A stretch of 64,000 nt of DNA from Prevotella sp. (GTDB lineage Bacteria; Bacteroidota; Bacteroidia; Bacteroidales; Bacteroidaceae): the NCBI GenBank assembly GCA_017410365.1, contig JAFQQY010000003.1:31436-95435 (forward strand), in the 5' to 3' direction. A model generated the notes under the pieces. That model searched no databases. It saw nothing but the letters and a program-made list of their open reading frames with translations, and was not told the DNA's origin. Below are positions 6,923-63,323 of the stretch, piece after piece (the first letter of the stretch is position 1; every line of letters starts with the position of its first letter). The translations under genes were made by a program, and so were the position numbers.

Positions 6923-8581
6923 TTAAAAACCTTTCTCTTTCTTAAAAGCCATGATGCTCTTTGTTACAGGGTGTGTCAGTGCCAACTCTGCCGCATGCAG
7001 ATAGAGGCGCTGTGCACGGGTGCCGTATAGCTCGTCGCCTGTGATGGGGATGCCGAGACCTTGTTGATGGGCGCAGTGGACGCGCAGCTGGTGGGTTCTG
7101 CCTGTGATGGGGTAGAGGTGAACAAGGGCTTGGCCGCCTCTCGCTTCTACTACCTTATATAATGTATGCGCCTCTTTGCCGTTTTCATAGTCAACCTTCT
7201 GGCGAGGGCGGTCGTTGAGGTCGGCAATGAGCGGTAGGCAGATTTCGCCTTCTTTCTTTTCTGGTATGCCGTCGAGCAGGGCGCAGTAGCGCTTCTTTAC
7301 GGTGCGCTGTTCAAACTGCTGTTGCAATAGCTGATGCACCTCCTTTGTCTTTGCCACCACCAGCAGGCCGCTTGTTGCCATATCCAGGCGATGAACGATA
7401 ATAGGTCCGCTGGCATCTGGCCATCGCTCGCTCATTATCGACCATACCGACGGCATGTTGTTTCTGCCGGGAGTGGTGAGCAGACCGGCGGGTTTGTTTA
7501 CCACAGCCAACCACTCATCTTCGTATATTGTCTTCAGTTCGCCGTTCCAGTTGCGCAGCATCGGGTCGTCGTCAACATCAAGTCCCTTGAGCATGTGACC
7601 GAGTATTGGTTTACACTTGCTGCTGCACGACGGATAGAAATGGCGGTGGTGGCGTATCTCACCTACTGGCGACTCTCCCCACCAGAACTCGCCCATACAC
7701 AGCGGTTTTAAACTGTGATCATAAGCATACTGCAACAGTTTTGGTGCGCAACACTCGCCCGCTCCCGATGGCGGGATGCCCATCGTTGTCTCTGCGAATA
7801 TCTCTGTAAGCGTGCGTCTCTCGCCCAGGGCATTAAGCATTGAGAACTGGTTGAATATCCATCGTTGCAGAGTGTCCGACATCTGCTTTCGCTGTTGTTT
7901 CAGTGATGCTATCTCATTGTTTATAATAGTCAGTTGACTCTCCGTCTTTTCAATGCTTTCGGCAAAGCGTTTTTTCATTCGGCGCAGTTCTGCCTTCATG
8001 AACTGGCTCTCGTGGATAAGTGAAGCCTCACCCCCAGCCCCTCTCCCATAGAGAGGGGAGTGGTTGGCAGGCTGTTGAGTTGACGTGTTGCTTGATTCTG
8101 CTCTTATCCAATCCCTCCTCTTCTTCGCTTCCGCCATTTCAGTCTTATAAGCATCGATAGCTTCTGCTGCCTCTGTTTTCTGCTTCTCGAGTAGTTCCAT
8201 AAAATGTTTCCGTTCGGAAGAACTCTCAAGTGCCTTTACCTTTTGGTTGATGTTGCTTATCTCTTCCTCGTGCGTCTTGAAATAGCCGTCAGGTTGAAGC
8301 ATGTCATAAACGGCAGGCACGAAATAGGGGTGGTCGTTGCTGTCGGCAAGCAAACCAGAGAATGCCGCAAGGAATCCCTTCCGCCCTTTAGCATCTTCAA
8401 CAATCAGTACACCGAACATCTTGCCCTTGTTTATCTCTTCCTGCCATTCAGGGACAGAAGCAATGTACTGCTGCACCTCCTCTGCTGCTTTTACTACAGC
8501 AGGATGAGGCTCATAGCAGAAGGGAAACGTAAACCGCTCCGGCAGGCTGACGGCAATATCCAGGTCGTGCAATCTTTCCAT
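6923..8581 (-). CDS. RluA-family pseudouridine synthase with long coiled-coil N-terminus
   Basis: A 552-residue protein. The C-terminal half (about 345-545) is the RluA-type catalytic domain: HRLDMATSGLL with catalytic D400, AGLLTTPGRN, KKRYCALLDG and the late ITGRTHQLRVHCAH motif. It isomerises uridine to pseudouridine in rRNA or tRNA. The N-terminal half (1-345) is a family-specific extension with a long charged coiled coil (about 100-245). Within the coiled coil a stretch, SPLYGRGAGGEAS at about residues 174-186, is encoded by a GC-rich hairpin repeat identical in plan to intergenic copies (see 8021-8080). A -7 box sits only seven bases before the ATG, so the mRNA leader is nearly absent. 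The RNA site modified cannot be inferred. Confidence 0.9.
   Translation of the reverse strand: MERLHDLDIAVSLPERFTFPFCYEPHPAVVKAAEEVQQYIASVPEWQEEINKGKMFGVLIVEDAKGRKGFLAAFSGLLADSNDHPYFVPAVYDMLQPDGYFKTHEEEISNINQKVKALESSSERKHFMELLEKQKTEAAEAIDAYKTEMAEAKKRRDWIRAESSNTSTQQPANHSPLYGRGAGGEASLIHESQFMKAELRRMKKRFAESIEKTESQLTIINNEIASLKQQRKQMSDTLQRWIFNQFSMLNALGERRTLTEIFAETTMGIPPSGAGECCAPKLLQYAYDHSLKPLCMGEFWWGESPVGEIRHHRHFYPSCSSKCKPILGHMLKGLDVDDDPMLRNWNGELKTIYEDEWLAVVNKPAGLLTTPGRNNMPSVWSIMSERWPDASGPIIVHRLDMATSGLLVVAKTKEVHQLLQQQFEQRTVKKRYCALLDGIPEKKEGEICLPLIADLNDRPRQKVDYENGKEAHTLYKVVEARGGQALVHLYPITGRTHQLRVHCAHQQGLGIPITGDELYGTRAQRLYLHAAELALTHPVTKSIMAFKKEKGF
8021..8080. repeat. GC-rich hairpin repeat inside the RluA-like gene
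   Basis: The + strand reads gcctcacccccagcccctct then a short loop and gagaggggag, matching intergenic copies at 59464-59505 and 62266-62300 (gcctcacccccg..cccctctccttggagagggg). It is in frame with the gene on the minus strand and encodes SPLYGRGAGGEA. Confidence 0.8.
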
Positions 8582-8588
8582 GTGACGG

Positions 8589-8596
8589 CAAAGTTA
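8589..8596 (-). promoter_or_regulatory. -7 box for the RluA-like gene, almost leaderless
   Basis: The minus strand reads TAACTTTG, a match to TAnnTTTG, with seven bases between it and the start codon at 8581. No clear -33 box is seen. Confidence 0.55.
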
Positions 8597-17059: not shown

Positions 17060-20000
17060 ATGAATACCAAGATACCGCACGAGTGGAATGAGTTTTATCT
17101 GAAAGACGTGTCGTTCATCAACCTGATGACGCGCCGTATATTCAATGTCCTGATTATCGCCAACCCCTATGATGCTTTTATGCTTGAAGACGACGGGCGT
17201 GTTGACGAGAAAATCTTTGAGGAGTACATGGAACTGGGTATGCGCTACCCGCCTACGTTCACCCAGGTGAGTACAATCGAAGAGGCTAATGAAGCTATGA
17301 AGAACATGGCTTTTGACCTTGTGATATGTATGCCGGGAACCGCCGATAATGACGCTTTCAGTGTGGCAAGAGCCGTTAAGGCAGAGGCACCTGACGTGCC
17401 GTGCGTGGTGCTTACCCCTTTCTCTCATGGCATCACCCGCCGCATGCAGGACGAAGACCTCTCCATCTTCGACTATGTATTCTGTTGGCTTGGCAATACC
17501 AATCTTATCCTCTCTATCATCAAGTTGATAGAGGACAAGATGAACATCGACCACGACATTCGTGAGGCTGGCGTGCAGATGATTCTGCTCGTGGAAGACA
17601 GTATCAGATTCTATTCTTCGATATTGCCCAACCTTTATAATTATATCTTGCAGCAGAGTCAGCGATTCTCCAAGGAAGCGCTCAACTCGCATGCCGCAGC
17701 ACAGCGCAAGCGCGGTCGTCCGAAGGTGGTGCTGGCGCGTAACTATGAAGAGGCGATGGCGCTCTATGAGAAGTATCATGACAATACGCTCGGAGTAATA
17801 AGTGATGCCCGCTATCCGATGACGCAGTCGCTGTCGAACGGTAAGCCTCTCGGACAGCCCGGTGGTGCAGGCAGTGACCCTGAAGCAGGATTGAAACTGC
17901 TCCGTGAAATACGTCGCCGTAACGAGTATGTTCCGCTGATTCTGCAAAGTGCAGAGTCGGACAACCGCTTGAAGGCGGAGGAAGAAGATTTCTTGTTTGT
18001 TGACAAGAACTCGAAGACGATGAACATCGACCTCCGACTGCTCATTGAAGAGCACATGGGATTCGGTGACTTCATCTTCCGTGACCCGGAGACGCGCAAG
18101 GAGATAGCTCGTGTCAGTTCGCTGAAAGAACTGCAAGACAATATCTTCAAGATACCAAATGACTCGATGCTCTATCATATCAGTCGCAACCACATGAGCC
18201 GTTGGCTCTGTGCCAGAGCAATCTTCCCCGTGTCGGCTTTCCTCAAGCATGTCACATGGCACAAGCTGCAGGACGTGGATGCTCACCGAAAGATTATCTT
18301 CGAGGCCATTGTGCAGTATCGAAAGATGAAGAATATCGGAGTTGTGGCAGAGTTCGACCGTGACAAGTTCGACTCCTACAGCCATTTCGCCCGCATAGGC
18401 GAGGGGTCGTTGGGAGGCAAGGGCAGAGGTTTGGCATTTCTCGACAACATAATAAAGCGACATCCGGAGCTAAACCAGTTCGATAATGCTGTGGTTACCA
18501 TTCCGAGAACCGTTGTGCTCTGCACCGACTTCTTCGATGAGTTCATGGAGAAAAACAAACTTTACGACATTGCGCTGAGCGATGCAGACGACAGCGTGAT
18601 ACTGGAACACTTTCTCCGTGCACAGTTGCCCGATTCGCTTATTGCCGACTTCTTCACTTTCTTCGAGGCGGTCAAGTCGCCAATAGCCGTGCGCTCGTCG
18701 TCGTTGCTCGAAGACTCACACTATCAGCCGTTTGCCGGAATCTACTCTACTTATATGATTCCTTATCTTGACGACAAGTACGACATGCTGCGCATGTTGG
18801 CCTGTGCCATCAAGGGCGTCTATGCATCGGTGTTCTATCGTGACTCTAAGGCATATATGACGGCCACGAGTAACGTAATCGACCAAGAGAAAATGGCGGT
18901 GATACTGCAAGAGGTGGTGGGCAATCGCTATGACGACCGTTTCTATCCTACGTTCAGTGGCGTGCTGCGCTCTCTGAACTATTATCCAATAGGCGAGGAG
19001 AAGGCTGAGGAAGGTATTGCCAATTTGGCGTTAGGACTGGGCAAGTATATCGTCGATGGCGGTCAGACACTGCGTGTAAGTCCGCACCATCCCAACCAAG
19101 TGCTGCAGATGAGCGAGATGGAGATGGCGTTGCGCGACACTCAAACCCGCTTCTATGCTCTCGACCTCAGTCATGTGGGCTACGACTTTAAGGTTGATGA
19201 TGGTTTCAACATACAGAAACTGCGTGTGAAGGAAGCCGACAAGGACGGTTCGCTGAAATACATAGCATCAACCTTCGACCCATACGACCAGATAATCCGC
19301 GATGGCATCTATGAAGGCGGCAGAAAGGTTATCAGTTTCTGCGGTGTGCTTCAGCATGGGGTGTTCCCATTGCCAGAACTGTTGCAGATGGCACAGAAGT
19401 TCGGTGCCGATGATATGCGTCGCCCTGTAGAGATTGAGTTCGCTTGTAATATGGATTCAACTCCTGTAGCTTCGGGTGAGGGAAGGGGAGAGCCTGGCAC
19501 ACAAAATCAACCAACCGGCACCCTCTACCTTTTGCAGATACGTCCTATTGTTGACAGCAAGCAGGTGCTAGACGAAGACCTTGATGCCATTAGCGATGAG
19601 CATTGTCTGTTGCGTTCGGACAATTCGTTGGGTCACGGCATCAGCGAGGAGGTTGTCGATGTGGTGTATGTCAAGGCTGGCAAGGATTTCTCGGCAGCCA
19701 ACAATCCCGCCATTGCCGACGACATTGAGCGCATCAACCGCCGTTTCCTCGATGAAAACAAGCATTATGTGCTTGTTGGACCGGGCCGTTGGGGGTCAAG
19801 CGACCATTGGTTGGGCATACCTGTAAAGTGGCCGCACATCAGTGCTGCGCGTGTCATCGTTGAGGCTGGTCTGGAAAATTATCGTGTTGATCCGAGTCAG
19901 GGTACTCACTTCTTCCAGAACCTCACTTCGTTCGGCGTGGGCTATTTCACAATCAATGCTTATATCAACGACGGCCTTTATCGCCAGGACCTGCTAGATA

Positions 20001-20134
20001 GCATGCCGGCAATCAACGAAACGCAATATGTGCGTCACGTCCGCTTTGAAAAACCTCTGAAGATAATGATGGATGGCAAGAAGCAGAAGGGTGTGGTAAT
20101 GCTGCCCGAAGATTTTGAAATAGTGGGAGATTGA
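17060..20134 (+). CDS. Receiver-like / PEP-pyruvate-binding (PPDK N-terminal) protein
   Basis: A 1024-residue cytosolic protein found widely in Bacteroidetes as a phosphoenolpyruvate-synthase-like protein. Residues about 25-155 and 165-340 look like two receiver-type alpha/beta domains (FNVLIIANPYDAFMLEDDG; MILLVEDSIRFYSSILPNL). From about 440 a PPDK/PEP-synthase N-terminal ATP-grasp domain is clear: GEGSLGGKGRGLAFLDNII, and PIAVRSSSLLEDSHYQPFAG. The ATP-grasp domain closes with TLYLLQIRPIVD (about 823-834). The phosphohistidine swivelling domain and PEP/pyruvate barrel of true PEP synthase are absent; instead there is a family-specific end (VLVGPGRWGSSDHWLGIPV). True PEP synthase activity is therefore doubtful and a regulatory role is possible. 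A segment at about 800-822 (DSTPVASGEGRGEP) looks repeat-derived. Confidence 0.8.
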   Translation: MNTKIPHEWNEFYLKDVSFINLMTRRIFNVLIIANPYDAFMLEDDGRVDEKIFEEYMELGMRYPPTFTQVSTIEEANEAMKNMAFDLVICMPGTADNDAFSVARAVKAEAPDVPCVVLTPFSHGITRRMQDEDLSIFDYVFCWLGNTNLILSIIKLIEDKMNIDHDIREAGVQMILLVEDSIRFYSSILPNLYNYILQQSQRFSKEALNSHAAAQRKRGRPKVVLARNYEEAMALYEKYHDNTLGVISDARYPMTQSLSNGKPLGQPGGAGSDPEAGLKLLREIRRRNEYVPLILQSAESDNRLKAEEEDFLFVDKNSKTMNIDLRLLIEEHMGFGDFIFRDPETRKEIARVSSLKELQDNIFKIPNDSMLYHISRNHMSRWLCARAIFPVSAFLKHVTWHKLQDVDAHRKIIFEAIVQYRKMKNIGVVAEFDRDKFDSYSHFARIGEGSLGGKGRGLAFLDNIIKRHPELNQFDNAVVTIPRTVVLCTDFFDEFMEKNKLYDIALSDADDSVILEHFLRAQLPDSLIADFFTFFEAVKSPIAVRSSSLLEDSHYQPFAGIYSTYMIPYLDDKYDMLRMLACAIKGVYASVFYRDSKAYMTATSNVIDQEKMAVILQEVVGNRYDDRFYPTFSGVLRSLNYYPIGEEKAEEGIANLALGLGKYIVDGGQTLRVSPHHPNQVLQMSEMEMALRDTQTRFYALDLSHVGYDFKVDDGFNIQKLRVKEADKDGSLKYIASTFDPYDQIIRDGIYEGGRKVISFCGVLQHGVFPLPELLQMAQKFGADDMRRPVEIEFACNMDSTPVASGEGRGEPGTQNQPTGTLYLLQIRPIVDSKQVLDEDLDAISDEHCLLRSDNSLGHGISEEVVDVVYVKAGKDFSAANNPAIADDIERINRRFLDENKHYVLVGPGRWGSSDHWLGIPVKWPHISAARVIVEAGLENYRVDPSQGTHFFQNLTSFGVGYFTINAYINDGLYRQDLLDSMPAINETQYVRHVRFEKPLKIMMDGKKQKGVVMLPEDFEIVGD
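19457..19522. repeat. Probable repeat-derived insert in the PEP-synthase-like gene
   Basis: The + strand gggtgagggaaggggagagc lies between conserved EFACNMD and GTLYLLQIRPIV and encodes an extra 20 or so residues. It resembles the GC-rich hairpin repeat family but is more diverged than other copies. Confidence 0.5.
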
Positions 20135-21885: not shown

Positions 21886-21915
21886 AGTTGCTAGCAACTT
21901 GTTAACTTGTCAACT
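21886..21915. repeat. CAACTTGT-type short-word array upstream of the MutS-like gene
   Basis: GCAACTTGT, TAACTTGT and CAACTAAAC words run to six bases before the ATG. The same words occur at 39381-39424 and, in coding sequence, at 22787-22829, 48851-48891 and 51929-51966. Confidence 0.7.
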
Positions 21916-21921: not shown

Positions 21922-23778
21922 ATGAATAAAATAGAAATTGTAGAATATTATAGTAAGAGGAAAACGGAACTGTCAACAGAGATAGGACTGCTGAAACGCA
22001 AGAACCGTCTCTTTGTTGTTTCCGAACTGCTATCGTTCATAGGGGCGATAGCGGCGGTGGCGGCATATACCGTTTATGGAGGAATGATTTGGCTTCTGAC
22101 TGCTGCTTTGCTGCTTGTTGCATATATTGTGATAAGGCAGGCTGATGGTCGCAACGGCAGCCGCATAGAAACCCTTACTGATCTGAAACGTGTTTATGAA
22201 AAGGAATTGTCGTACTATGCCGGCGATTATTCTTGTTTTGCCGACGGAAGCGAGTATGCTGACCCGAAACATCCGTTTACATATGATATGGACATCTTCG
22301 GACGTCAGTCGCTCTTCCAACGCATCAACAGAACCGTGAGCAGCGGTGGAGCGGACAGGTTGGCAGAATGTCTAAGCAATCTAAGTGGCGACAAGGATTA
22401 CATTGATTGCCGTCGTGAGGTTATTGACCGACTGGCAGAAATGGAAGCGGAACGGGCAGCTTTCATGACACAGGGACAACGGCAGAAAATAGAGACAAGG
22501 CAGATTCAGGAAGCACTTGAAGGTGTGGCAGAGATGTCGTTGTCGCGTTTCCCGCTTTCTCCATTATCACTTGTGCTTGCTGTTATGGCCATCGTAGCTC
22601 TGCTGACAGTGGTCGTGCTTGCGTTCTTTGGTGTCGTTTCGGGAACGATGGCTATGATGTGGGCCACGATGCAATTGTTTGTTGTTATGATGCTGTGCTT
22701 GAAGTCGATAAAGATGATAAGCAAGTCGGTTAACAATCTTCATAAGCAGATGAAGCAGTATGTGGAACTGATAAGGTTGACTCGTGAGATGGTTGACAAG
22801 TTGACGAGTCAGCAAGTTGATAAGTTGTTTGCTACTAATACACATGATTCGTCAAATAAATTGCATGCCTTCGACGAACTGCGCAGCATTCTAGATGCTC
22901 TCGACCGTCGTGGCAATGTTCTTGGGCTTATGTTCACCAATATGTTCCTGTTGAGCGACTATTTTCTTGTGCGCCGCTTCATCAAATGGAAAGAGCGCTA
23001 TCTCGATAAGGTTGGCGAATGGATTGACGAAGTGAGCACGATGGACGCTTTGGTATCGATGGCTACCTTTGCCTATAACGAGCCACGGTCGGGTAGGGCG
23101 GAGATTGTAGAGTTGGACGAAGTGGTATATGAGGCTAAAGGACTCTATCATCCGTTTGTCGGTGACAAGGCTGTGAGAAACGATTTCAACATAGTGGACA
23201 ATAACTACTATATCATCACCGGTGCGAATATGGCAGGCAAGAGTACTTTCTTGCGTTCTATTGGTATCAACTACATACTGGCACAGAACGGAATGCCGGT
23301 GTTTGCTGATAGTCTGCGGGTATCGTCATACAACCTGTTTACGAGTATGCGGACAAGCGATGACCTGTCAAGCGGCATCAGTTACTTTAATGCCGAGTTG
23401 CTGAGGCTGAAGCAATTAATAGATAGCCTCAAACCCTCTCACCCCACCTTTGGAGGAACCGGGGAAAGTCCCACCCTCATCATTCTCGATGAGATACTGA
23501 AGGGAACCAACTCGCTCGATAAACTGAATGGTTCGCGCATGTTCCTTGAAGCAATGTCGGCACAGCCAGTCAGCGGCATCATTGCCACCCACGACCTTGA
23601 ACTGTCTAAGATGGCAGACGAGCGGCCTGACAGATTTCATAACTACTGTTTTGAGATAGAACTCTCAGACAATATAATATATACCTACAAGATAACTCCA
23701 GGAGTGGCGCGCAATCAGAATGCCACATTTCTTCTGAAGAATATAATCCGTTCTTTAGAATGGCGAGACACGATGTAA
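21922..23778 (+). CDS. Membrane-anchored MutS-like ATPase
   Basis: A 618-residue protein with the MutS C-terminal ATPase but without the mismatch-recognition domain. The start is set at ATG 21922 (MNKIEIVEYY); an upstream in-frame TTG at 21907 lies in a repeat. Two pairs of hydrophobic segments (about 33-68 and 210-265) indicate membrane anchoring. The ATPase has Walker A GANMAGKST (434-442), SMRTSDDLSSGISYF, Walker B IILDEILKGTNS and an ATHD His. Canonical mismatch repair is unlikely; this Bacteroidetes family is of unknown function. Two stretches, KLTSQQVDKLFATNTHDS (about 290-308) and KPSHPTFGGTGES (about 503-515, just before Walker B), are encoded by repeat words and interrupt otherwise conserved sequence. 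Confidence 0.82.
   Translation: MNKIEIVEYYSKRKTELSTEIGLLKRKNRLFVVSELLSFIGAIAAVAAYTVYGGMIWLLTAALLLVAYIVIRQADGRNGSRIETLTDLKRVYEKELSYYAGDYSCFADGSEYADPKHPFTYDMDIFGRQSLFQRINRTVSSGGADRLAECLSNLSGDKDYIDCRREVIDRLAEMEAERAAFMTQGQRQKIETRQIQEALEGVAEMSLSRFPLSPLSLVLAVMAIVALLTVVVLAFFGVVSGTMAMMWATMQLFVVMMLCLKSIKMISKSVNNLHKQMKQYVELIRLTREMVDKLTSQQVDKLFATNTHDSSNKLHAFDELRSILDALDRRGNVLGLMFTNMFLLSDYFLVRRFIKWKERYLDKVGEWIDEVSTMDALVSMATFAYNEPRSGRAEIVELDEVVYEAKGLYHPFVGDKAVRNDFNIVDNNYYIITGANMAGKSTFLRSIGINYILAQNGMPVFADSLRVSSYNLFTSMRTSDDLSSGISYFNAELLRLKQLIDSLKPSHPTFGGTGESPTLIILDEILKGTNSLDKLNGSRMFLEAMSAQPVSGIIATHDLELSKMADERPDRFHNYCFEIELSDNIIYTYKITPGVARNQNATFLLKNIIRSLEWRDTM
22787..22829. repeat. CAACTTGT-type words inside the MutS-like gene
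   Basis: Read on the minus strand, words of the CAACTTATCAACTTGC and CGTCAACTTGTCAACC type match the intergenic array just upstream at 21886-21915. They are in frame. Confidence 0.65.
23427..23475. repeat. GC-rich repeat-like insert before Walker B of the MutS-like gene
   Basis: AAACCCTCTCACCCCACCTT then TGGAGGAACCGGGGAAAGTC resembles the CCCTCTCC..GGAGAGGGG family. It encodes about twelve extra residues between the LIDSL helix and TLIILDE. Confidence 0.55.
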
Positions 23779-47900: not shown

Positions 47901-50900
47901 ATGTTGAGAACTTTGCTGATGCTGTTGCTTGCTGTGCTTCTGATGCCTGTTGCGGTGTCGGGGCAGAGTTACTCGTCGTTATGGAAACAAGCTGATGAGG
48001 CTATGTCTAAGGACTTGCCGCAGACAAGGATTGAGATATTAGGAAAGATAGCAGACAAGGCAAGGCGCAACGGCGACTACGGGCAACTGATGAAGGCGAC
48101 CTTGGGCATGGCTGCACAGCAGGTGGCAGTGGCGCCCGATTCTCTCAAACCGATAGTGGGACGACTGGAAAAGAGCAGGAGCGAGGCTACTGACGATGTT
48201 CAGAGGGCTGTGTATAGTGCCGTCTTGTCGGTCATATACAAGAACAACAGGAATCTTGATGACAGTAGTGCCGCCATTGCCAAGCGTTATGCAGAAATGG
48301 CGATGGCCAATCCCGCCTTGTTGGCATCGGCAAAGGCCACGGGCTATAAACCCTTTGTGGTTGAGGGCATAAACAGCAGGATTTTCAATGACGATATGCT
48401 CAGTGTCATTGGTTTTGAGACAGAACAGTTTGCACCGATGCACGATTACTATTCTGCATCTGGCAATTGCCGTGCGGCGTGCATCGTGGCACTGAAGATG
48501 GTGCAGCACAACAATCGCTTTGAAACGGCACCGCTGCGAAAGTCGCACTGCATCGTGTCGCTCGACTCACTCATTGCAGTATATGGTGATTTGGATGTGG
48601 CAGGCGAGGTGGCAGTTGAGCGTTACTACCACATGGTGAGTTGTACTGACGTAACGATTGAAGACCAGATAAGGTACGTCAACTACGCCACTCAGAAATG
48701 GCCGTCGTGGCAGCGCATGAACGACCTGCGCAATGCGTACAAGCGACTTACGTTTCCGAGGGTGAATGTTTTGACTTCGGGAGTGAAGGAGAATACTTCA
48801 AGGAGTGTAGGAGTGAAGGAGTGTAGGAGTGAAGACAATAGCAATGCAAACTGCTCGTCAACTCGTCAACTCGTCAACTTGTCAACTGTATTATCCCTCC
48901 GCAACATCGAAGAACTCACGGTGAAGGTCTATCGCACGTCGCTTGACGGCCGGTCGGAACTAGATGCGCAGAACGAGAATGACTATAAGAAGATGAAGGC
49001 GGGGCTGGTGGCGCTGGCAGACAAAACCCTTAATAGGAAATATTCTGTTCGACCCGAATATGAGGTGTTCAACGATACACTGAATATTGGCGGCTTTGAA
49101 CCGGGTGTGTATATGTTTGAACTGACAACAGCACCTGAGACGGAACCATTGCGCTGGATTGTGAAGGTGAGCAATCTCCGTGTGATGGCAATGGAACTTC
49201 CTGAAAAGAAGATACGCTATGTGGTGGTTGATGCTCACAGCGGCAAACCAGTGAACGGGGCGAAGATAGAACTGCGCCAACACGAAAAGAATGAACTGCT
49301 GGCAACGCTGTCCACCGATGGCAATGGTGAGGCAGTTTATAATTACGACAAAAAGAAACCTAATAGGTTTTACGTTTATACCGATACTGACAAGGCCTTG
49401 CAAGAGGGCAGGTATTATGAAACTTTCTTTGCCAATGAAATCAATCGCACGACAACAAAGGTTAAGGTTCTTACCGACCGTGCCATCTATCGTCCAGGAC
49501 AGACGGTGAGTGTTGCTGCTGTTGTATATGAAGAAGCACGTAACAGTAGGGCAGACGTATATATGAAGCGCAAGGTGATGGCTGGCAAGTCGGTCAAGGC
49601 TGTATTGCGTGATGCCAATTACAAGGTGGTGGCAGAGAAAACACTGGTGACGGATGCTTACGGCAAGTGCAACACAACGTTTGTGCTGCCGCAGTCGGCA
49701 CTCAACGGAAGATATACCGTAGCCGTTGATAATATGAAAGTCGGTATTTCAGTCGAAGAATACAAGCGCCCAACGTTCTTTGTGGAGTTCCCAGAGATAA
49801 AGGAGACATATCGTGCCGGCGACACGCTGGTGGTAAGAGGCAAGGCCGTTGGCTATAACGGTATGCCGGTGCAGGGCGCAACGGTGAAGTATTCTGTAAG
49901 ACGCAGTGCATGGTGGTGGCGATATGGAGGTGATGACGATGCAATGGTGGCAAGCAATGAGATAGCCACAACTGCTATCGACGGCACGTTTGCCGTGGAG
50001 GTTCCGCTCGTTGTTCCAGAGAATGCGGCAGGTGTGTCTCGTATGTATCATTTCAATGTCAGTGCTCATGTTACCGATGTTTCTGGCGAAACGCAACAAG
50101 GCGAGATGACACTCCCGTTGGGCACCAAACCAGTGATGCTGTCGTGCAGTCTTGGCGACCAGGTGCTTGCCGATACACTGAAAGGTTTCACGTTCACTCT
50201 GCATAATGCTGCCGGCAACGAGATTGACGGAGAGGTGAAGTACTGTATCAGGGCAATGGCTAATGAGCCCTATGAGTCTCATAAGCCCAATAAGTCCCAT
50301 AAGTCCTCTGTGGCCAATAAACTCTGTGAGGTTTCCCTAAATAGCGGCCGCTATCTCTTGACAGCATGGAGCGGTGGCGATACTCTGAAGCATGAGTTCA
50401 CGGTGTTCTCGCTTAACGATACCGTTCCTGCGGCACAGACAGATGAATGGATTTATCAGTCGGCAAATCAGTTCCCAGCAGACGGTACACCAGTAACCGT
50501 TCAGGTGGGTTCATCAGACCCCGACCTGTATATCTATTATTCTATAATATCAGGAAATACAGTCTTAGAGAGTGGTGTGGAGAGGCGCAATGCTTCGCTC
50601 ATCAATCGCAAACTGACTTACAGGAAAGAATATGGCAACGGACTGAGACTTAGCTTCGCATGGGTGAAGAATGGTGTTTGTCATAACTGTAACATGAAGA
50701 TAACACGTCCGAAACAAGATACAGACTTGCAGATGGCGTGGAAGACGTTCAGAAACAAACTTGTGGCAGGACAGAAGGAAGAATGGACGCTCAGCATAAA
50801 GAAATCTGATGGTACACCTGCTGATGCACAGATGGTGGTGGCGATGTATGACAAGTCGCTAGATAAGTTGAGAAAGAACCAATGGAGCAAACTCTATGAC

Positions 50901-53639
50901 TTGCAGCCATGGCTAAGCAATACTCGCTGGATAGTGTCGTGGCAGCAGGATGTGCTGAACAGGAGCACGTGGCAGCAATGGAAGCCCCTCAACTATCAGA
51001 CTCTGGATTTCAGTCGCTTTGACCATAGTCTGTTCCCCGTTACTTTCTCAGGACAAAAAATTATGAGGTTAAGGGGCGTGGGCAAGAATGCTGCAATGAT
51101 GAAAACGGCGCCAACGGGTTCTGTCACGATGCTTGAAGAGGTGACGTTTGACCATATTCCTGGTTCAGTGGGTTCTGTGGATGCCGCAGCTTTGCAAGGC
51201 AAGATAGGCGGACTAGAAGGACTTGTTATGGCGGACGACGCAGCAGGTGTGGAAACGGCGGAAGGCGAGTCTGGGTATATGAAGACGCAGTTGCGAGAGA
51301 ATCTCAACGAAACGGCATTCTTCTATCCGGCACTGACTACCGACGATGATGGCAACGTGTCGATAAAGTTCACGCTGCCCGAGAGCGTTACCACTTGGCG
51401 ACTGCTCGGCTTTGCCCATACAGCCGACATGCTCAACAATGTGATTGAGGCAGAGGCAGTGGCAAGCAAGGAGGTGATGGTGCAACCGAATATGCCGCGC
51501 TTTGTACGAGTGGGCGATAAGGTGCAGATAAGTGCACGCATATCTAATAGCGGTGAGAAGGTGGCAAAGGGTGCAGCCCTGATGGAACTCGTTGACCCAG
51601 AGACAGACAAGGTGGTGGTAAGACAAAAGAAGTCCATTTCCGTAGAGGCTGGCACAACAACATCAGTCACATTCGACTTCGCACCAGAAGAAAAATTCCC
51701 ATTGCTGATATGCCGCATAACGGCTTCTGGCAAGACGTTCAGCGATGGTGAACAGCACTATCTGCCTGTGCTTCCTGACAAGGAGCGCGTAACCGTAACA
51801 CAATCGTTCACGATGAACGAACCAGGTACTAAGGTTTTGAATGTATCTGACTTTTTGGGAGTGCAGGAGAATACTTCAAGGAGTGTAGGAGTGAAGGAGT
51901 GTAGGAGTGAAGACAATAGCAATGCAAGCAACTCGCCAACTCGTCCACTCGTCAACTCGTCCACTAAAAAAGTTACCCTCGAATACACCGACAACCCAGC
52001 ATGGCTCATCGTTCAGGCATTGCCGTCGCTGGCAACACCGTCGAAGGATAATGCCATTGATTTGGCAACATCCGTTTATGTCAATGTGCTGGGCAGAAAG
52101 CTCGTTACAGACAACCCTCGCATAAAGATAGCTGTTGACCAGTGGAGAATGGAACAAGGGGAAGAAGCTTCGTTGCAGAGCAGTCTCGCAAAGAACCAAG
52201 AACTGAAAGATATTGTGCTCAGTGAGACTCCTTGGGTGAACGAGGCTGAGAGCGAGGCTGAGCAGAAGCAGATGCTTGCCACATTCTTCGATGCTAACAC
52301 AATAGATTCGAGAGTTGCTTGTGCAATTAAGGAGTTGGGCAAACTGCAGAACGAAGACGGTTCATGGAGCTGGTACCCGGGCATGACGGGCAACAGCAAT
52401 ATAACGGTGTCCGTAGCCGAAATGCTTGTGAGACTAAACAAGAACGCTGGCATGCAAAAGGAAACTCAGGCAATGCTGAACAAGGCAATGGATTATCTGA
52501 ACAAGGAAACTGTTAAGCAGGTGGAGAAACTGAAGGAAATGGAGAAGAAGGGACAAACGGTAGCCTTCCCTGGTTTCACAACTCTTCAAATCCTCTATCT
52601 CAATGCCATATCTTCAGACTCACCATCCGTTTCCCTCCCCAAGGGGAGGTCAGGAGGGGCTTCTTTAACCTCACAACCTCACATCTATCTGATAGAGTTG
52701 CTAAAGAAAGACATAAAGAAGCAGTCAATCTACGAGAAAGCCCTCACGGCAATCGTTCTTGCAAAGAGCGGACAGCAGAAGAATGGCGGTGAATACGTGG
52801 AGAGCCTGAAACAATATACGGTGTTCACAGAAGAACAAGGTCGCTACTACGACACACCGCGTGCCGGTTATTCATGGCGTGACTATCGCATACCGACACA
52901 GGTGGCAGCCTTAGAAGCAATAAGCGAACTGAACGCTGCTGACAAGAAGACTGTCGAGGAAATGCAGCGCTGGCTGTTGCAGCAGAAGCGTACTCAGGCA
53001 TGGGACACTCCTATTAACAGCATCAATGCCATCTATGCCTTTATGAATGGCAACAAGCAGATGCTTGACGCCCAACCGCAAGCAAAGATAAAGGTTGATG
53101 GCAAAGCAGTGGAAACGCCAAAGGCAACAGCAGCACTGGGATATGTGAAGATGAAGATAGACAATGCCGAGAGCATCGCTGTAGAAAAGGCATCAGACGT
53201 TACTTCATGGGGTACAGTCTATATGCAGTATTTCCAGAAGACATCGGCAGTCTCAGATCAAGGCAATGGCATCAGCATAAAGCGTGAGATACTCGATGCC
53301 GACGGTAAGGAACTGAAGGTCGGTTCCCGAGTAAAAGTGAGAATAACCGTTGAGGCGGATAGAAACCTCGACTTTGTTCAGATAGCCGACAAGCGTGCTG
53401 CCTGCATGGAACCTGTTGTTCAGCTGAGCGGTTATCGCAATGGTGCTTATTGCTCGCCGAAAGACAATGCAACATACTATTTCATTGACCAACTGCCTAA
53501 GGGCAAGCATGTGATAGAAACAGAATACTATATCGACCGTGCCGGAGTCTATGAGACAGGCACCTGCACCGCAGAGTGCGCATACTCGCCAGAGTTCAAG
53601 GCAACGGCAAAGTCGCAACAACTTATAGTTAAAGAATGA
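47901..53639 (+). CDS. Alpha-2-macroglobulin-like giant protein with four repeat-derived inserts
   Basis: A 1912-residue exported protein. The start is set at ATG 47901 (MLRTLLMLLLAVLLMPVAVS, signal peptide); an in-frame TTG lies two codons upstream. Order: N-terminal unique region (to about 290), macroglobulin beta domains with KVLTDRAIYRPGQTVSVAAV (about 520-540), the A2M bait/receptor region FFYPALTTDDDGNVSIKFTL then PESVTTWRLLGF (about 1140-1171), and an alpha-alpha toroid with WSWYPGMTGN (about 1490). The thioester CxEQ motif of trapping A2Ms is absent at LATPSKDNAIDLATSVYVN. Relatives may guard the periplasm against proteases. Inserts at residues about 294-331, 788-808, 1320-1356 and 1572-1594 are encoded by intergenic-type repeat words. 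Its stop overlaps the DUF1573 gene start by four bases. Confidence 0.9.
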   Translation: MLRTLLMLLLAVLLMPVAVSGQSYSSLWKQADEAMSKDLPQTRIEILGKIADKARRNGDYGQLMKATLGMAAQQVAVAPDSLKPIVGRLEKSRSEATDDVQRAVYSAVLSVIYKNNRNLDDSSAAIAKRYAEMAMANPALLASAKATGYKPFVVEGINSRIFNDDMLSVIGFETEQFAPMHDYYSASGNCRAACIVALKMVQHNNRFETAPLRKSHCIVSLDSLIAVYGDLDVAGEVAVERYYHMVSCTDVTIEDQIRYVNYATQKWPSWQRMNDLRNAYKRLTFPRVNVLTSGVKENTSRSVGVKECRSEDNSNANCSSTRQLVNLSTVLSLRNIEELTVKVYRTSLDGRSELDAQNENDYKKMKAGLVALADKTLNRKYSVRPEYEVFNDTLNIGGFEPGVYMFELTTAPETEPLRWIVKVSNLRVMAMELPEKKIRYVVVDAHSGKPVNGAKIELRQHEKNELLATLSTDGNGEAVYNYDKKKPNRFYVYTDTDKALQEGRYYETFFANEINRTTTKVKVLTDRAIYRPGQTVSVAAVVYEEARNSRADVYMKRKVMAGKSVKAVLRDANYKVVAEKTLVTDAYGKCNTTFVLPQSALNGRYTVAVDNMKVGISVEEYKRPTFFVEFPEIKETYRAGDTLVVRGKAVGYNGMPVQGATVKYSVRRSAWWWRYGGDDDAMVASNEIATTAIDGTFAVEVPLVVPENAAGVSRMYHFNVSAHVTDVSGETQQGEMTLPLGTKPVMLSCSLGDQVLADTLKGFTFTLHNAAGNEIDGEVKYCIRAMANEPYESHKPNKSHKSSVANKLCEVSLNSGRYLLTAWSGGDTLKHEFTVFSLNDTVPAAQTDEWIYQSANQFPADGTPVTVQVGSSDPDLYIYYSIISGNTVLESGVERRNASLINRKLTYRKEYGNGLRLSFAWVKNGVCHNCNMKITRPKQDTDLQMAWKTFRNKLVAGQKEEWTLSIKKSDGTPADAQMVVAMYDKSLDKLRKNQWSKLYDLQPWLSNTRWIVSWQQDVLNRSTWQQWKPLNYQTLDFSRFDHSLFPVTFSGQKIMRLRGVGKNAAMMKTAPTGSVTMLEEVTFDHIPGSVGSVDAAALQGKIGGLEGLVMADDAAGVETAEGESGYMKTQLRENLNETAFFYPALTTDDDGNVSIKFTLPESVTTWRLLGFAHTADMLNNVIEAEAVASKEVMVQPNMPRFVRVGDKVQISARISNSGEKVAKGAALMELVDPETDKVVVRQKKSISVEAGTTTSVTFDFAPEEKFPLLICRITASGKTFSDGEQHYLPVLPDKERVTVTQSFTMNEPGTKVLNVSDFLGVQENTSRSVGVKECRSEDNSNASNSPTRPLVNSSTKKVTLEYTDNPAWLIVQALPSLATPSKDNAIDLATSVYVNVLGRKLVTDNPRIKIAVDQWRMEQGEEASLQSSLAKNQELKDIVLSETPWVNEAESEAEQKQMLATFFDANTIDSRVACAIKELGKLQNEDGSWSWYPGMTGNSNITVSVAEMLVRLNKNAGMQKETQAMLNKAMDYLNKETVKQVEKLKEMEKKGQTVAFPGFTTLQILYLNAISSDSPSVSLPKGRSGGASLTSQPHIYLIELLKKDIKKQSIYEKALTAIVLAKSGQQKNGGEYVESLKQYTVFTEEQGRYYDTPRAGYSWRDYRIPTQVAALEAISELNAADKKTVEEMQRWLLQQKRTQAWDTPINSINAIYAFMNGNKQMLDAQPQAKIKVDGKAVETPKATAALGYVKMKIDNAESIAVEKASDVTSWGTVYMQYFQKTSAVSDQGNGISIKREILDADGKELKVGSRVKVRITVEADRNLDFVQIADKRAACMEPVVQLSGYRNGAYCSPKDNATYYFIDQLPKGKHVIETEYYIDRAGVYETGTCTAECAYSPEFKATAKSQQLIVKE
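48781..48891. repeat. Composite repeat inside the A2M-like gene, copy 1
   Basis: AAGGAGTGTAGGAGTGAAGG words, a GACAATAGCAATGCAA spacer and then CAACTCGTCAACTTGT words. It is nearly identical over about 80 bases to 51858-51966 and in the same frame, encoding ENTSRSVGVKECRSEDNSNA. Confidence 0.92.
50262..50322. repeat. ATAAGTCCC-type array inside the A2M-like gene
   Basis: Words gagccctatgagtctcataa, gcccaataagtcccataagt encode NEPYESHKPNKSHKSS, an insert in a beta-sandwich loop. Confidence 0.75.
51858..51966. repeat. Composite repeat inside the A2M-like gene, copy 2
   Basis: Second copy of 48781-48891: GGAGTGTAGGAG words, the same GACAATAGCAATGCAA spacer, then CAACTCG(C/T)CAACTCG words. It stands between DFLGVQ and KKVTLEYTDNPAWL. 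Confidence 0.92.
52615..52680. repeat. GC-rich hairpin repeat inside the A2M-like gene
   Basis: CCCTCCCCAAGGGGAGGTCA then GGAGGGGCTTC belongs to the CCCTCTCC..GGAGAGGGG family. It encodes SVSLPKGRSGGASL between two helices of the toroid. Confidence 0.82.
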
Positions 53640-54712: not shown

Positions 54713-54932
54713 TAATGGATTGAAGAAGATAGAAGGAGATAAAAGAAGATAGAAGACATTTGCGTGTCAAGCATCCGTCCTGTTTTTCGCATAGCTCAAG
54801 GAAACTCCTCCTTAGCGAAGCGCCACTCCTTCACTCCTACACTCCTTTAAAAGAAAGCATCCGTCTTCACTCCTAAGCGAAGCGTCACTCCTTCACTCCT
54901 ATACTCCTTTAAAAAGAATAAGAATAAAATCT
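54713..54932 (+). repeat. Composite intergenic element, copy 1
   Basis: In transcription direction: AATAATGGATTGAAGAAG, GAAGATAGAAG words, ACATTTGCGTGTCAAGCATC followed by CGTC (54759-54779), then AGCGAAGCG with ACTCCTTCACTCCTAC words, a second AAAGCATCCGTC, AGCGAAGCG and words again, ending TTTAAAAAGAATAA 14 bases before meaB. It fills the whole gap. Four more copies are at 56036, 58284, 59214 and 62265. Confidence 0.9.
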
Positions 54933-56039
54933 ATGGAACATCCAGAAAATAGCGAAGAATATAAAGGACTAACAGTCAATGGCGGTGTTGAACAACCGTC
55001 TATTATCAATCCCTACCTTAAGCGTAACCGCTTCCGCCGCCGTGAGTTGTCGGTGGCAGAACTTGTAGAGGGAATTGTAAAGGGCGATGTTACTGTGCTC
55101 AGTCAGGCAGTAACGCTGGTGGAGAGCACCAATCCTCAGCACTATTCCAAGGCGCAAGAGGTTATTGAGAAGTGCCTTCCTTACAGCGGCAACTCTGTGC
55201 GCATAGGCATCAGTGGCGTGCCAGGTGCCGGCAAGTCAACATCTATCGATGAGTTCGGAGTGCATGTACTTGAGCGAAACGGCGGAAAGCTTGCCGTGCT
55301 GGCCATCGACCCTAGTTCGGAAATATCTAAGGGAAGCATCCTTGGCGACAAGACACGCATGGAGAAACTCTCCGTTCACCCCCAGTCGTTCATTCGCCCT
55401 AGCCCCTCAGCTGGCTCGCTCGGAGGCGTTGCCCGCAAGACGCGCGAGTCGATAATTCTCTGTGAGGCGGCAGGCTTCGACAAAATATTCGTAGAGACCG
55501 TTGGAGTGGGACAGAGCGAGACAGCCTGTCACTCTATGGTCGATTTCTTCCTGCTCATTCAGTTGGCAGGCACAGGCGATGAACTTCAGGGCATCAAGCG
55601 TGGCATCATGGAGATTAGTGATGGCATTGTGATAAACAAGTGCGATGGCGAGAATGTTGACAAGTGTCATCTGGCTGCAACCAATTTCCGCAACGCACTC
55701 CATTTCTTCCCCAAACCAGAAAGCGGCTGGTTGCCGAAAGTATTATGCTACAGCGGATTCTATGGCACAGGAGTGAAAGAGGTGTGGGACATGGTTTACG
55801 AATATTTCGACTTCGTCAAGGCAAACGGCTATTTCCAGTACCGCCGCAACGAGCAGAACAAGTACTGGATGTATGAGACAATCAACGAGCAGTTGCGCAA
55901 CAGTTTCTATCACAACGAGACAATTCAACAGCGTCTCGCCGATGCAGAAAAGATGGTGCTTGGTGGTGTGAAGACTAGTTTCGGTGCTGCACAGGATTTG
56001 TTGGATGAGTATTGGGGGATTGGGGGATTGAAGGATTGA
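54933..56039 (+). CDS. meaB: MeaB GTPase, chaperone of methylmalonyl-CoA mutase
   Basis: A 368-residue G3E P-loop GTPase. Walker A GVPGAGKST (95-103), AIDPSSEISKGSILGDKTRM, FVETVGVGQSETA (G3) and VINKCDG (G4). MeaB loads and protects the adenosylcobalamin-dependent methylmalonyl-CoA mutase, which works in succinate-to-propionate conversion; the mutase genes are not in the window. The final residues (WGIGGLKD) and stop run into repeat words of the next intergenic element. Confidence 0.95.
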   Translation: MEHPENSEEYKGLTVNGGVEQPSIINPYLKRNRFRRRELSVAELVEGIVKGDVTVLSQAVTLVESTNPQHYSKAQEVIEKCLPYSGNSVRIGISGVPGAGKSTSIDEFGVHVLERNGGKLAVLAIDPSSEISKGSILGDKTRMEKLSVHPQSFIRPSPSAGSLGGVARKTRESIILCEAAGFDKIFVETVGVGQSETACHSMVDFFLLIQLAGTGDELQGIKRGIMEISDGIVINKCDGENVDKCHLAATNFRNALHFFPKPESGWLPKVLCYSGFYGTGVKEVWDMVYEYFDFVKANGYFQYRRNEQNKYWMYETINEQLRNSFYHNETIQQRLADAEKMVLGGVKTSFGAAQDLLDEYWGIGGLKD

Positions 56040-56168
56040 AGAAGATAGAAGAAGGTAGAAGGAGATAAAAGAAGATAGAAGACATTTGCGTGTCAAGCAT
56101 CCGTCCTCTAACTTCTTAGCGAAGCGATAACTTCCTATAACTCCCTTTAACTTCTTAAAAATAACGAA
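56036..56168 (+). repeat. Composite intergenic element, copy 2 (short)
   Basis: The same GAAGATAGAAGAAGG block and TTTGCGTGTCAAGCATCCGT, then TTAGCGAAGCGATAACTTCC words. It lacks the second GCATCCGTC module. It ends seven bases before ispH and begins in the meaB stop. Confidence 0.9.
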
Positions 56169-58283: not shown

Positions 58284-58520
58284 TGTTGTTGAGGTTTGTT
58301 TATTCTTTTTAAAGGAGTGTAGGAGTGAAGGAGTGGCGCTTCGCGTAGGAGTGCAGACGGATGCTTTCTTTTTAAGAAGTTAAAAGGAGTTATAGGAAGT
58401 TATCGCTTCGCTAAGGAGTTACAGGACGGATGCTTGACACGCAAATGTCTTCTATCTTCTTTTATCTCCTTCTACCTTCTTCTATCTTCTTCATTCCATT
58501 ATTATGAGGTTATGAGTTTT
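58284..58520 (-). repeat. Composite intergenic element, copy 3
   Basis: Read on the minus strand, the order is the same as copy 1: AATAATGGAATGAAGAAG, GAAGATAGAAGAAGG words, TTTGCGTGTCAAGCATCCGT, TTAGCGAAGCGATAACTTCC, AAAGCATCCGTC, GCGAAGCG with ACTCCTTCACTCCTAC words, TTTAAAAAGAATAA. It fills the gap between cmk and the GH43 gene, both on the minus strand. Confidence 0.9.
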
Positions 58521-59213: not shown

Positions 59214-59503
59214 ATTTTATGTTTTGTTTTTTTAAAGAAGTTAAAGGGAGTTATAGGAAGTTATCGCTTCGCTGAGAAGTTAGAGGACGGATGCTTTCTT
59301 TTTAAAGGAGTTCAGGAGTGAAGGAGTGCAGACGTATGCTTGACACGCAAATGTCTTCTATCTTCTTTTATCTCCTTCTACCTTCTTCTATCTTCTTCAT
59401 TCCTTCAACTTTTCAATCCCTCATCTCTCATCCCTCATCTCTCATCCCAATTCAGGAGTTCAAGAGTCTCCCCTCTCCAAGGAGAGGGGTCGGGGGTGAG
59501 GCC
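59214..59503 (-). repeat. Composite intergenic element, copy 4, with GC-rich hairpin
   Basis: On the minus strand: a GC-rich hairpin (CCCCTCTCCTTGGAGAGGGG, 59467-59486), ATGAGGGATGAGAGATGAGG words, GAAGATAGAAG words, TTTGCGTGTCAAGCATACGT, CTTTAAAAAGAAAGCATCCG, AGCGAAGCGATAACTTCC words. It fills the porQ-cmk gap. Confidence 0.9.
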
Positions 59504-61289: not shown

Positions 61290-62264
61290 ATGCTTACATC
61301 AAAGGAAATCCTTACAAAGGTAAACGAATTTATCGAACAACTGCCATACGACCGCCAGCCGCAGTCGCTTTATGAGCCAGTTAAGTATGTACTCTCTATT
61401 GGCGGCAAGCGTGTGCGCCCTGTTCTAATGCTCTTGGCATACAATCTGTACAAGGAAGACCCAGAGCGAATACTCATGCCGGCATGCGCATTGGAGACAT
61501 ACCATAACTACACTTTGCTGCACGACGACCTCATGGACAATGCCGACGTGCGTCGTGGCCTACCTACGGTTCATCGCAAGTGGGACGCCAACACAGCCAT
61601 ACTGTCGGGCGACTCTATGCTCGTGCTTGCATACCACCGCATGCTGCAGTGCGATGCCGACAAGCAACCGGAGGTCATGAGACTGTTCACAGAGACCGCA
61701 CTGGAGATTGGCGAAGGGCAGCAGTACGACATGGAGTTTGAAAACCGCGACGATGTAACCGAAGAGGAATATATCGAGATGATACGCTTGAAGACCAGCG
61801 TGCTCTTGGCATGCGCCATGAAGATTGGCGGCATTCTCGCCGGTGCGTCTGCCGAGGATGCAGACAACCTATATAAGTTTGGCGAACAGGTAGGACTGGC
61901 GTTCCAGTTGCAAGACGACCTGCTCGATGTCTATGGCGACCCGAAGGTGTTCGGCAAGGCTGTGGGCGGCGACATTACATGCAACAAGAAAACCTATATG
62001 CTCATCAATGCTTTCCAGCGTGCCAACAGCGAGCAGCGTGCGGAACTGCAGCGTTGGGTTTCGGCAAAGGACTTTGACCGTCAGGAGAAGGTAGCTGCCG
62101 TTACAGAGATATACAATCAGATAGGCATCCGCCAGATTTGCGAAGAGAAGATAAACTACTACTTCGAGGAGAGCAAGAAGTATCTTGCCAAAATCAACGT
62201 TGCCGATGAGCGCAAGCAGACCCTGCTGCAATATACGGCAGAAATGATGAAGAGGGAGAGCTAA
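61290..62264 (+). CDS. trans-Isoprenyl diphosphate synthase
   Basis: A 324-residue polyprenyl synthetase. First Asp-rich motif DDLMD (D79, D80, D83) and second DDLLD (D209, D210, D213), with GGKRVRPVL (38-46), GLPTVHRKWDAN and the usual LKTSVLLACAMKIGGIL. It condenses IPP onto allylic diphosphates; chain length (farnesyl, geranylgeranyl or longer) is not settled by the motif alone. The substrate comes from the MEP pathway, whose last enzyme is encoded at 56169. Likely co-transcribed with tonB. Confidence 0.93.
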   Translation: MLTSKEILTKVNEFIEQLPYDRQPQSLYEPVKYVLSIGGKRVRPVLMLLAYNLYKEDPERILMPACALETYHNYTLLHDDLMDNADVRRGLPTVHRKWDANTAILSGDSMLVLAYHRMLQCDADKQPEVMRLFTETALEIGEGQQYDMEFENRDDVTEEEYIEMIRLKTSVLLACAMKIGGILAGASAEDADNLYKFGEQVGLAFQLQDDLLDVYGDPKVFGKAVGGDITCNKKTYMLINAFQRANSEQRAELQRWVSAKDFDRQEKVAAVTEIYNQIGIRQICEEKINYYFEESKKYLAKINVADERKQTLLQYTAEMMKRES

Positions 62265-62480
62265 GGCCTCACCCCCGCCCCCTCTCCTTGGAGAGGGGAG
62301 ACTCCTGAACTCCTGATAATGGAAAGAAGAAGATAGAAGAAGGTAGAAGGAGATAAAAGAAGATAGAAGACATTTGCGTGTCAAGCATCCGTCTGCACTC
62401 CTACACTCCTTCACTCCTACACTCCTTAAAAAAGAAAGCATCCGTCTGCACTCATAATTCCTAATTCCTAATTCAAAATT
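62265..62480 (+). repeat. Composite intergenic element, copy 5, with GC-rich hairpin
   Basis: In order: GC-rich hairpin (CCCCTCTCCTTGGAGAGGGG, 62279-62298), ACTCCTGAACTCCTGATAAT, GAAGATAGAAGAAGG words, TTTGCGTGTCAAGCATCCGT, ACTCCTACACTCCTTCACTC words, AAAGCATCCGTC, CATAATTCCTAATTCC words. It reaches the tatD start codon. Confidence 0.9.
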
Positions 62481-63323
62481 ATGGTACAACCTCCCAACTC
62501 CTCCCCCCTAACTCCCAACTCCCCTCCTTCGGAGGGGCAGGGGGAGGCCCTTGCTTTCATCGACACACACGCCCACCTTGACGGCGAGGAGTTTGACGAC
62601 GACCGCGACGAGGTGGTGGCACGTGCCCAAGAGGCGGGTGTCTCTGCCATCTTCGTGCCCGCCATCCATCTGCCATCCATAGATGCCGTGCTCAATGTAT
62701 GCCGCCGCTATCCTGGATATGCTTACCCCATGATAGGCTTGCATCCGGAGGAGGTGAAGGCCGACTGGCGCGAGGTGCTGACAGAGATGAAACGGCGATA
62801 TGCCGACGAGTTCATTGCCGTTGGCGAAGTCGGGCTCGACTATTATTGGAGTCGCGAGTTTGAGAAGGAGCAGCTGGATGCTTTCGAGGAACAGATACAG
62901 TGGTCTATAGAGTGGCAGAAACCCTTGATGATTCACTGCCGCAAGGCACAGAACGAGATGGTGCGTCTTTTGCGCAAGTACGAAAAGCAGTTGCCCGGCG
63001 GCGTATTCCACTGCTTCACTGGCAATGCCATCGAGGCAGCTGAGCTGCTGCAGTTCGACAGGTTCGTGCTTGGTGTCGGCGGTGTACTAACGTTCAAGAA
63101 GTCGCATCTGCCCGAAGTGTTGCCCGCAGCCGTACCCCTCGACCGCATAGTAATCGAGACCGACGCCCCCTATATGGCACCAGTGCCCATGCGTGGCAAG
63201 CGCAACGAGAGTGCCTACGTGCGCCATGTACTTGAGCGCATGGCAGAGTGCTACGGCATAAGCATAGAAGAAATGGCTGAGGCAACGAACAACAACGTGA
63301 AGAGAATATTTGGTAGGCCCTAA
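62481..63323 (+). CDS. tatD: TatD-family metal-dependent hydrolase with repeat-built N-terminus
   Basis: A 280-residue TIM-barrel DNase-type hydrolase. The conserved core begins at FIDTHAHLD (residues 26-34, metal ligands H30 and H32), where family members normally have M(L/I)DTHAHLD at their very start. GEVGLDYYW, LMIHCRKA, GGVFHCFTGN and VIETDAPYMAP follow. No start codon lies between residues 2 and 26, so the first 25 residues (PPNSSPLTPNSPPSEGQGEA) must be translated, and they are encoded by TAACTCCCAACTCCCCTCC words and a GC-rich hairpin. The likely history is insertion of a repeat just behind the start codon. Confidence 0.9.
   Translation: MVQPPNSSPLTPNSPPSEGQGEALAFIDTHAHLDGEEFDDDRDEVVARAQEAGVSAIFVPAIHLPSIDAVLNVCRRYPGYAYPMIGLHPEEVKADWREVLTEMKRRYADEFIAVGEVGLDYYWSREFEKEQLDAFEEQIQWSIEWQKPLMIHCRKAQNEMVRLLRKYEKQLPGGVFHCFTGNAIEAAELLQFDRFVLGVGGVLTFKKSHLPEVLPAAVPLDRIVIETDAPYMAPVPMRGKRNESAYVRHVLERMAECYGISIEEMAEATNNNVKRIFGRP
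62491..62556. repeat. GC-rich hairpin and ACTCCC words forming the tatD N-terminus
   Basis: CAACTCCTCCCC, TAACTCCCAACTCCC, then CCCCTCCTTCGGAGGGG and CAGGGGGAGGCCCTTGC, the same plan as the intergenic copy at 62266-62300 but reversed. In frame. Confidence 0.85.

Follow-up and report, generated by a model that had tools for sequence, protein, structure and literature searches.

In-frame copies of short repeat elements in conserved protein genes of a Prevotella genome and related species

The stretch analysed here, called the window throughout, comprises 64,000 nucleotides of contig JAFQQY010000003.1 from a Prevotella sp. whose draft genome is 3.28 Mb long and 89% complete. Six of its conserved genes, encoding an RluA-like pseudouridine synthase, a PEP-synthase-like protein, a MutS-like protein, a BaiN-like protein, an A2M protein and TatD, contain segments built from short words that also fill intergenic gaps nearby. 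An earlier annotation made from the letters alone (the sequence-only reading) had described such words, in frame, in at least six conserved genes. A repeat check located the words and arrays where that reading had placed them, and in-frame word segments are present in all six genes (Table 1).

Table 1. Repeat-derived features of the window.
Feature	Position	Strand	Basis and remarks
In-frame insert NHSPLYGRGAGGEA in RluA-family pseudouridine synthase gene 6923-8581	8024..8065	-	Located from residues 173-186
In-frame insert PVASGEGRGEPGTQNQ in PPDK_N/PEP-synthase-like gene 17060-20134	19463..19510	+	Homologue alignment
MVDKLTSQQVDKLFATNTHDSSNKL, probable decayed B'-loop-B octamer hairpin, in MutS-like gene 21907-23778	22785..22875	+	Repeat analysis; fold z -0.83
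Insert of about 40-50 aa in BaiN-like (HI0933/TIGR00275) gene 44389-45750	45175..45324	-	8-mers GGTTTTGA and 24-mers AACCTGAAAGCGTAGCGACCTCAT
First A-linker-B composite in A2M gene 47895-53639	48776..48887	+	Repeat and homologue alignment
9-mer array AGTCCCATA in A2M gene, codes SHKPNKSHKS	50266..50306	+	Length-variable site
Second A-linker-B composite in A2M gene	51854..51965	+	92% identical to first, 3078 nt apart (multiple of 3)
CCTCCCC/GGGGAGG-type hairpin in A2M gene, codes SVSLPKGRSGGAS	52626..52670	+	Repeat and homologue alignment
Intergenic mosaic, 10-mer and octamer arrays	54718..54920	+	Repeat analysis
Intergenic mosaic	56033..56164	+	96% inverted match to 58366-58497
Intergenic mosaic, A-type octamers and GACGGATGC	58300..58497	-	Repeat analysis
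Intergenic mosaic, same modules as neighbouring intergenic mosaics	59227..59403	-	Repeat analysis
Intergenic mosaic and hairpin immediately upstream of TatD gene	62262..62480	+	Repeat analysis
Repeat-coded N-terminus of TatD gene 62481-63323	62481..62550	+	Start codon within repeat tract

Homologues of each of the six genes were sought in 40 genomes per gene and chosen rows were aligned: 24 of 29 loci outside the own genome for RluA (paralogues L164-L168 excluded), 29 of 29 for the PEP-synthase-like protein and for TatD, 18 of 29 for MutS (MutS1 paralogues excluded), 19 of 29 for BaiN (weak and duplicate loci excluded) and 21 of 29 for A2M (loci of other gene order and the genus fragment L038 excluded). 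For all but the MutS-like gene, the repeat-coded peptide is found in no aligned row and the flanks align, as the sequence-only reading had anticipated. The gain in length is clear for the RluA-like protein, where residues 169-190 make 22 aa against up to 7 in homologues having the region (0/24 rows with the peptide; 15 with residues near the site, 9 without the region), for the PEP-synthase-like protein (19 aa against 2-3; 0/29, one row truncated) and for the BaiN-like protein (59 aa against 5-25; 0/19, two rows partial). Each of the four A2M segments is absent from all 21 rows, two of them partial, and three of the sites show a clear gain (39, 34 and 23 aa against 15-16, 4-5 and 8-12). The TatD peptide, likewise in 0/29 rows, precedes a Pfam domain that starts at residue 27; because the stretch from the first ATG to the domain contains no other in-frame ATG, GTG or TTG, the start of the gene lies inside the repeat, and the gene is best read as having a replaced start. 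In the MutS-like gene the segment is probably a decayed hairpin copy of another family, scoring 62 bits with a hairpin peptide model in whose building this copy was included. The proposal that the segments fall in loops, linkers or termini holds insofar as homologues have gaps at the insert sites; it rests on these alignment gaps rather than on structures of the proteins themselves.

A genome-wide search extended the picture beyond the window. The 23-mer octamer array AGGAGTGTAGGAGTGAAGGAGTG occurs at 130 places in the 3.28-Mb genome (up to 3 mismatches, overlapping places counted), and the word read backwards at none. A looser form of the array is found in 31 of 200 sampled genus genomes, with 121 places in the own genome and 41 in the next-highest; its backward control turns up in 3 of the 200, at 18 places in one of them. 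We also collected 13-mers present at four or more intergenic loci in an 864-kb sample of the own genome with 488 called genes. These form 34 runs in genes, 21 of which, in 14 of the 488 genes, are internal (30 codons or more away from either end), and the reversed 13-mers form none; in the 724 kb whose selection did not depend on octamer hits, on contigs already known from the word search, 7 of 418 genes have internal runs. In-gene word runs exceed chance expectation; this strict measure overlooks families such as that in the BaiN-like gene. Over the first 464 kb, repeated words account for 0.47% of bases in genes and 12.3% of those between genes, a contrast that is partly built in because the words were defined from intergenic copies. 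The words are parts of larger mosaic or hairpin elements and not free-standing units.

The first such element is the A-linker-B composite found twice in the A2M gene. A BLAST search with the A2M insert returned at least 58 matches in the own genome (40 of 175 candidates scored), and 15 aligned copies have a common plan, in which octamers AGGAGTNN (A) are followed by a linker beginning AGRC and then by CAACTCGT words (B), with the B array reaching 37 nt in 14 of the 15. Linkers from unrelated genes are related to each other, the 14 best of 105 pairs all lying above 200 shuffles. Model R1 gave at least 25 own-genome matches (19 of 1328 first-look candidates scored), and of the 19 listed (59 bits and above) 16 lie in frame inside long open reading frames (ORFs). 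They fall in 12 genes: A2M, MetH, MalQ/GH77 and a sugar-kinase-like SBD_N/NBD_C gene with two copies each, and genes for an Mfd-like protein, a 4Fe-4S protein, DUF5686, DusB, GH43, GH2, a KdtA-like protein and a TPR/HisKA protein, the last with its copy close to the C-terminus. An insert lies between two Pfam domains in MetH and in IlvD, and within one domain match in GH43. The intergenic copy L291, which is situated between convergent ORFs, aligns with L292, the Mfd-like copy, at 93% over 173 nt, and this is the best evidence for the copying of whole units. Outside the own genome the best R1 match (G199, 65.6 bits) resembles a composite and lies outside any open frame. Of 200 genomes, 132 yielded R1 matches, which we do not treat as composites; those of lower score that were inspected are other octamer arrays.

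Hairpins laid out as B'-loop-B make up a second kind of element. An inverted repeat with octamer arms is a frequent layout among the best-scoring loci inspected in other genomes (judged by eye, uncounted), and a peptide model of five hairpin copies finds a match in 69 of 398 genus genomes. Among the matches listed we chose 16 copies in stop-free frames of more than 370 aa from 9 genomes and added a shorter one in the glutamine synthetase III of G050, leaving aside other long-frame rows such as G060:C29. By Pfam, hairpin copies lie in CTP synthase (G050, G188 and G137), in AlaRS, LeuRS and an ABC-2 permease (G188), in an M3 peptidase (G364), in GH31 (G188, with G083 assigned by 72% identity) and in PurL (G241, with G302 assigned by 75% identity); own-genome copies lie in IlvD and in ABC-F-like and MutS-like genes. 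Peptides such as NSSTRQLVNSST would be coded within MetH, MalQ or CTP synthase. In two species CarA and CarB are joined in one open frame by an in-frame element at their junction (L336 of G134 and L450 of G188). The in-gene B'-loop-B copies L332, L333 and L336 give fold z values of -8.0, -7.3 and -7.9; the values are -5.7 for L318, -5.0 for L338 and -0.83 for the MutS-like copy.

Internal in-gene arrays are all sense (15 A and 16 B, none antisense); antisense A arrays are seen twice, both at the start of a gene. Stops alone do not explain the bias of A, since the antisense A word is open; the bias agrees with a fixed polarity of the composite. At the position where the usual arm has TGA, all 20 words in 16 of the 17 ORFs read (one ORF being without the word) have a sense codon, and six different codons are used (AAA 10, AGA 4, GGA 2, GAA 2, CAG 1 and TCA 1), whereas 67 of 95 intergenic words of the own sample would have TGA or TAA in the same phase. 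Because in-gene copies were found through open frames, this result describes repeated ways round a stop and is not an unbiased test. It fits the suggestion of the sequence-only reading that open, tolerated peptides are selected.

Comparison across related species, with one genome per species, revealed sites at which an insert is present, nearly absent or of a different kind. The CTP synthases of G050 and G188 (88% identical) have an insert at a common site, where that of G137 (90% and 87% identical to them) shows just a short word-like stretch; the G137 protein carries its own copy at another place. Relative to the solved CTP synthase 9kao, the insert of G050 is placed between residues 128 and 130. 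No clear target-site duplication is seen between G050 and the short G137 site, which may not be an empty site because the word-like GTTAGCGAGTCAAC remains there. In the G188 gene (L450:3606-5378), a second in-frame insertion appears to be nested within the first. One ArgS site, aligning with a gap in the solved ArgS 2zue, holds three different inserts in three genomes: an A-type hairpin in G137 (L338), an octamer array GGACAATG in L092 and a CCCCTCC/GGAGGGG-type insert in L401. The L092 word occurs at no other place in its 21-kb locus but is present in L103 and L118; a repeat scan of the L401 insert, whose arms are about 8 nt by eye, listed no inverted repeats reaching 10 nt. Similarly, one GH31 site (L448, L456 and L122) has B-type inserts in G188 and G083 and a different inverted repeat in the own genome, which, because it was found only at that place in the sample, is not counted here as a repeat family.

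Taken together, we consider it probable (about 0.87) that the in-gene inserts are tolerated copies of short repeat elements belonging to several families. These elements would be too small for a gene of their own, being hairpins or mosaics built mostly from tandem arrays of 7-10-nt words, and units of about 75-170 nt would be copied to new places by a putative enzyme. The related linkers and the intergenic/genic copy pair demonstrate whole-unit copying. The copies observed in genes preserve the frame, take a stop-free orientation and phase, and sit where homologues vary in length or domains join. The orientation bias, the lost stop codons and the reuse of sites are direct observations; we infer that other insertions are lost by selection, that those remaining are nearly neutral for the host, and that a copying enzyme exists. 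No benefit to the host protein need be assumed. The observation made in the sequence-only reading is confirmed and its interpretation, including the entry of several unrelated word families into genes, is supported.

Several other processes could generate parts of this pattern. Ectopic recombination or gene conversion between existing arrays would require neither a mobile element nor a dedicated enzyme, and both the 92% identity of two composites within the A2M gene and the modules that mosaics have in common are what it would produce; yet it needs a resident homologous tract, and homologue rows have none at the insert sites; we regard it as rather unlikely. Membership in the class of repetitive extragenic palindromic (REP) sequences moved by REP-associated tyrosine transposases (RAYTs) would explain hairpins with many intergenic copies and some in genes, and intragenic REPs are known (PMC3733652, in the text available). 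The arms of the present elements are, however, octamer arrays, and no GTAG/CGTC tag is apparent by eye at the hairpin foot, in the composite consensus or in the folded stems (no formal scan or search for a RAYT gene was made), leaving this origin improbable. Local replication slippage, which would generate and expand the words within each gene separately, without movement between loci, is in keeping with tandem arrays of varying length and with three B arrays spaced 45 nt apart in MetH. The sequence-only reading had named word multiplication next to mobile short elements. Multiplication in place is disfavoured because linker-bearing composites with two arrays recur in unrelated genes and because intergenic and Mfd-like copies match over 173 nt; the 37-nt length that the B array reaches in 14 of 15 aligned copies also speaks against it, and we judge slippage very unlikely. 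Assembly error or decay of pseudogenes might be suspected in draft genomes with repeats that are hard to assemble, but is scarcely credible given that inserts of like kind recur in a number of genomes assembled independently, among them G134 and G364 at about 99% completeness, and that the ORFs read are open over at least 377 aa with recognised domains.

Certain results weigh against the interpretation as tolerated element copies. Three of the 19 listed composites lie outside ORFs (C47:68253, C35:157720 and C33:83658), and the nine A-linker-B composites examined show little or no folding (z +0.86 to -2.08), so that the hairpin form is not general. Two cases in the window are weak: the MutS-like repeat covers a variable region and adds little net length relative to the 18 rows, and at the SHKPNKSHKS site of A2M the gain is about 4-6 residues, with 3 of 21 homologues equally long. 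Models R1 and A2 were built largely from in-gene copies, which favours the detection of such copies, and the openness of in-gene copies is partly built into their detection. Most genomes are drafts, and the insert peptides are known as predicted translations. The analysis, which covered one genome per species and did not include a RAYT search, found neither an enzyme nor a target-site duplication nor polymorphism between strains.

In-frame selfish repeats are best known from Rickettsia, whose palindromic elements are about 105-146 bp long, and short words in tandem are known from the short tandemly repeated repetitive (STRR) sequences of cyanobacteria. The Rickettsia elements, put forward as a precedent by the sequence-only reading, are a fitting one: they are short hairpin elements of several families that, like the present elements, occur in frame in unrelated conserved genes and also between genes (PMC2229807 and PMC10969869, in the text available). 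The present elements are about 75-173 nt long, and three of their B'-loop-B copies fold at z -8.0 to -7.3, unlike the composites. They differ in that their host belongs to the Bacteroidota, their arms are tandem octamer arrays, the composite lies mostly in genes, and one site can hold different insert types in different species. Intragenic REPs are short hairpin repeats, some copies of which code in frame, also in tRNA synthetases, and different REPs lie at about the same recB site in two Xanthomonas species (available text of PMC3733652); these are GTAG/CGTC, RAYT-linked families, whereas the arms of the present hairpins are word arrays with no such tag apparent. The likeness to both groups appears to be one of behaviour, and membership in neither is established. 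The TAACTGA heptamer repeats of Beggiatoaceae, cyanobacteria and some Bacteroidetes are tandem short words, mostly intergenic and patchy, with some in ORFs; unlike the present families they consist of one word, closed in the forward frame, and the available text (PMC4679880) describes no hairpin composites in conserved enzymes. Miniature inverted-repeat transposable elements (MITEs) with coding potential, such as Correia and ERIC, are small non-autonomous repeats that have become joined to genes in frame (PMC2229807, available text), whereas no target duplication or transposase was identified for the present elements (terminal repeats of insertion sequences were not looked for). A literature search by titles and abstract openings, with most subscription papers outside its coverage, found no description of such elements in Prevotella.

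Word arrays are also associated with a neighbouring gene. The gene at window 6220-6891 encodes a four-helix-bundle protein with the TIGR04258 suffix and a below-cut-off match to 23S rRNA-intervening proteins, and it is flanked by arrays at 6085-6177 and 6878-6924. Members of this suffix family occur in 106 of 200 genus genomes and in none of the 14 controls. Of 30 loci fetched (L399-L428), 28 were used, two being too short, and 9-10-mer word arrays lie downstream of the gene in 22 and upstream in 15, compared with 8 and 8 at 76 control genes; at L408 the array codes the C-terminal tail of the protein. Flanking arrays, where alike, are mostly in direct order, and we rejected the idea that they are terminal inverted repeats (above shuffles direct at 15/28 and inverted at 10/28, inverted better at 1). 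Clustering near the four-helix-bundle gene was rejected as well, since the GTCnGACnn arrays of G179 spread over the whole 80 kb, with 8 of 35 within 5 kb, and six contigs of the own sample carry TAGGA(N)5 arrays. The density of the G179 arrays is itself very high, with 35 such 9-mer arrays in 80 kb (L432-L435). Two 22-nt tandem repeats of a different type lie at window 1383-1425 and 44325-44382. As a tentative and rather unlikely extension, the elements might form a lineage adapted to life inside protein genes, with a dedicated factor for the word-array system, possibly the TIGR04258 proteins; A-linker-B and stop-free B'-loop-B elements would then persist largely as tolerated peptides in conserved enzymes, reusing permissive sites across species.

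The tolerated copies described here would bring behaviour like that of in-frame selfish repeats to a large gut and rumen genus, with several element families at once. Sites shared between species offer a natural map of the places that admit insertions in proteins, and the copying step becomes testable where species differ at a single site. Given that inserts occur in enzymes with solved relatives and simple assays, such as CTP synthase, ArgS and AlaRS, their tolerance by the host protein may be accessible to experiment.

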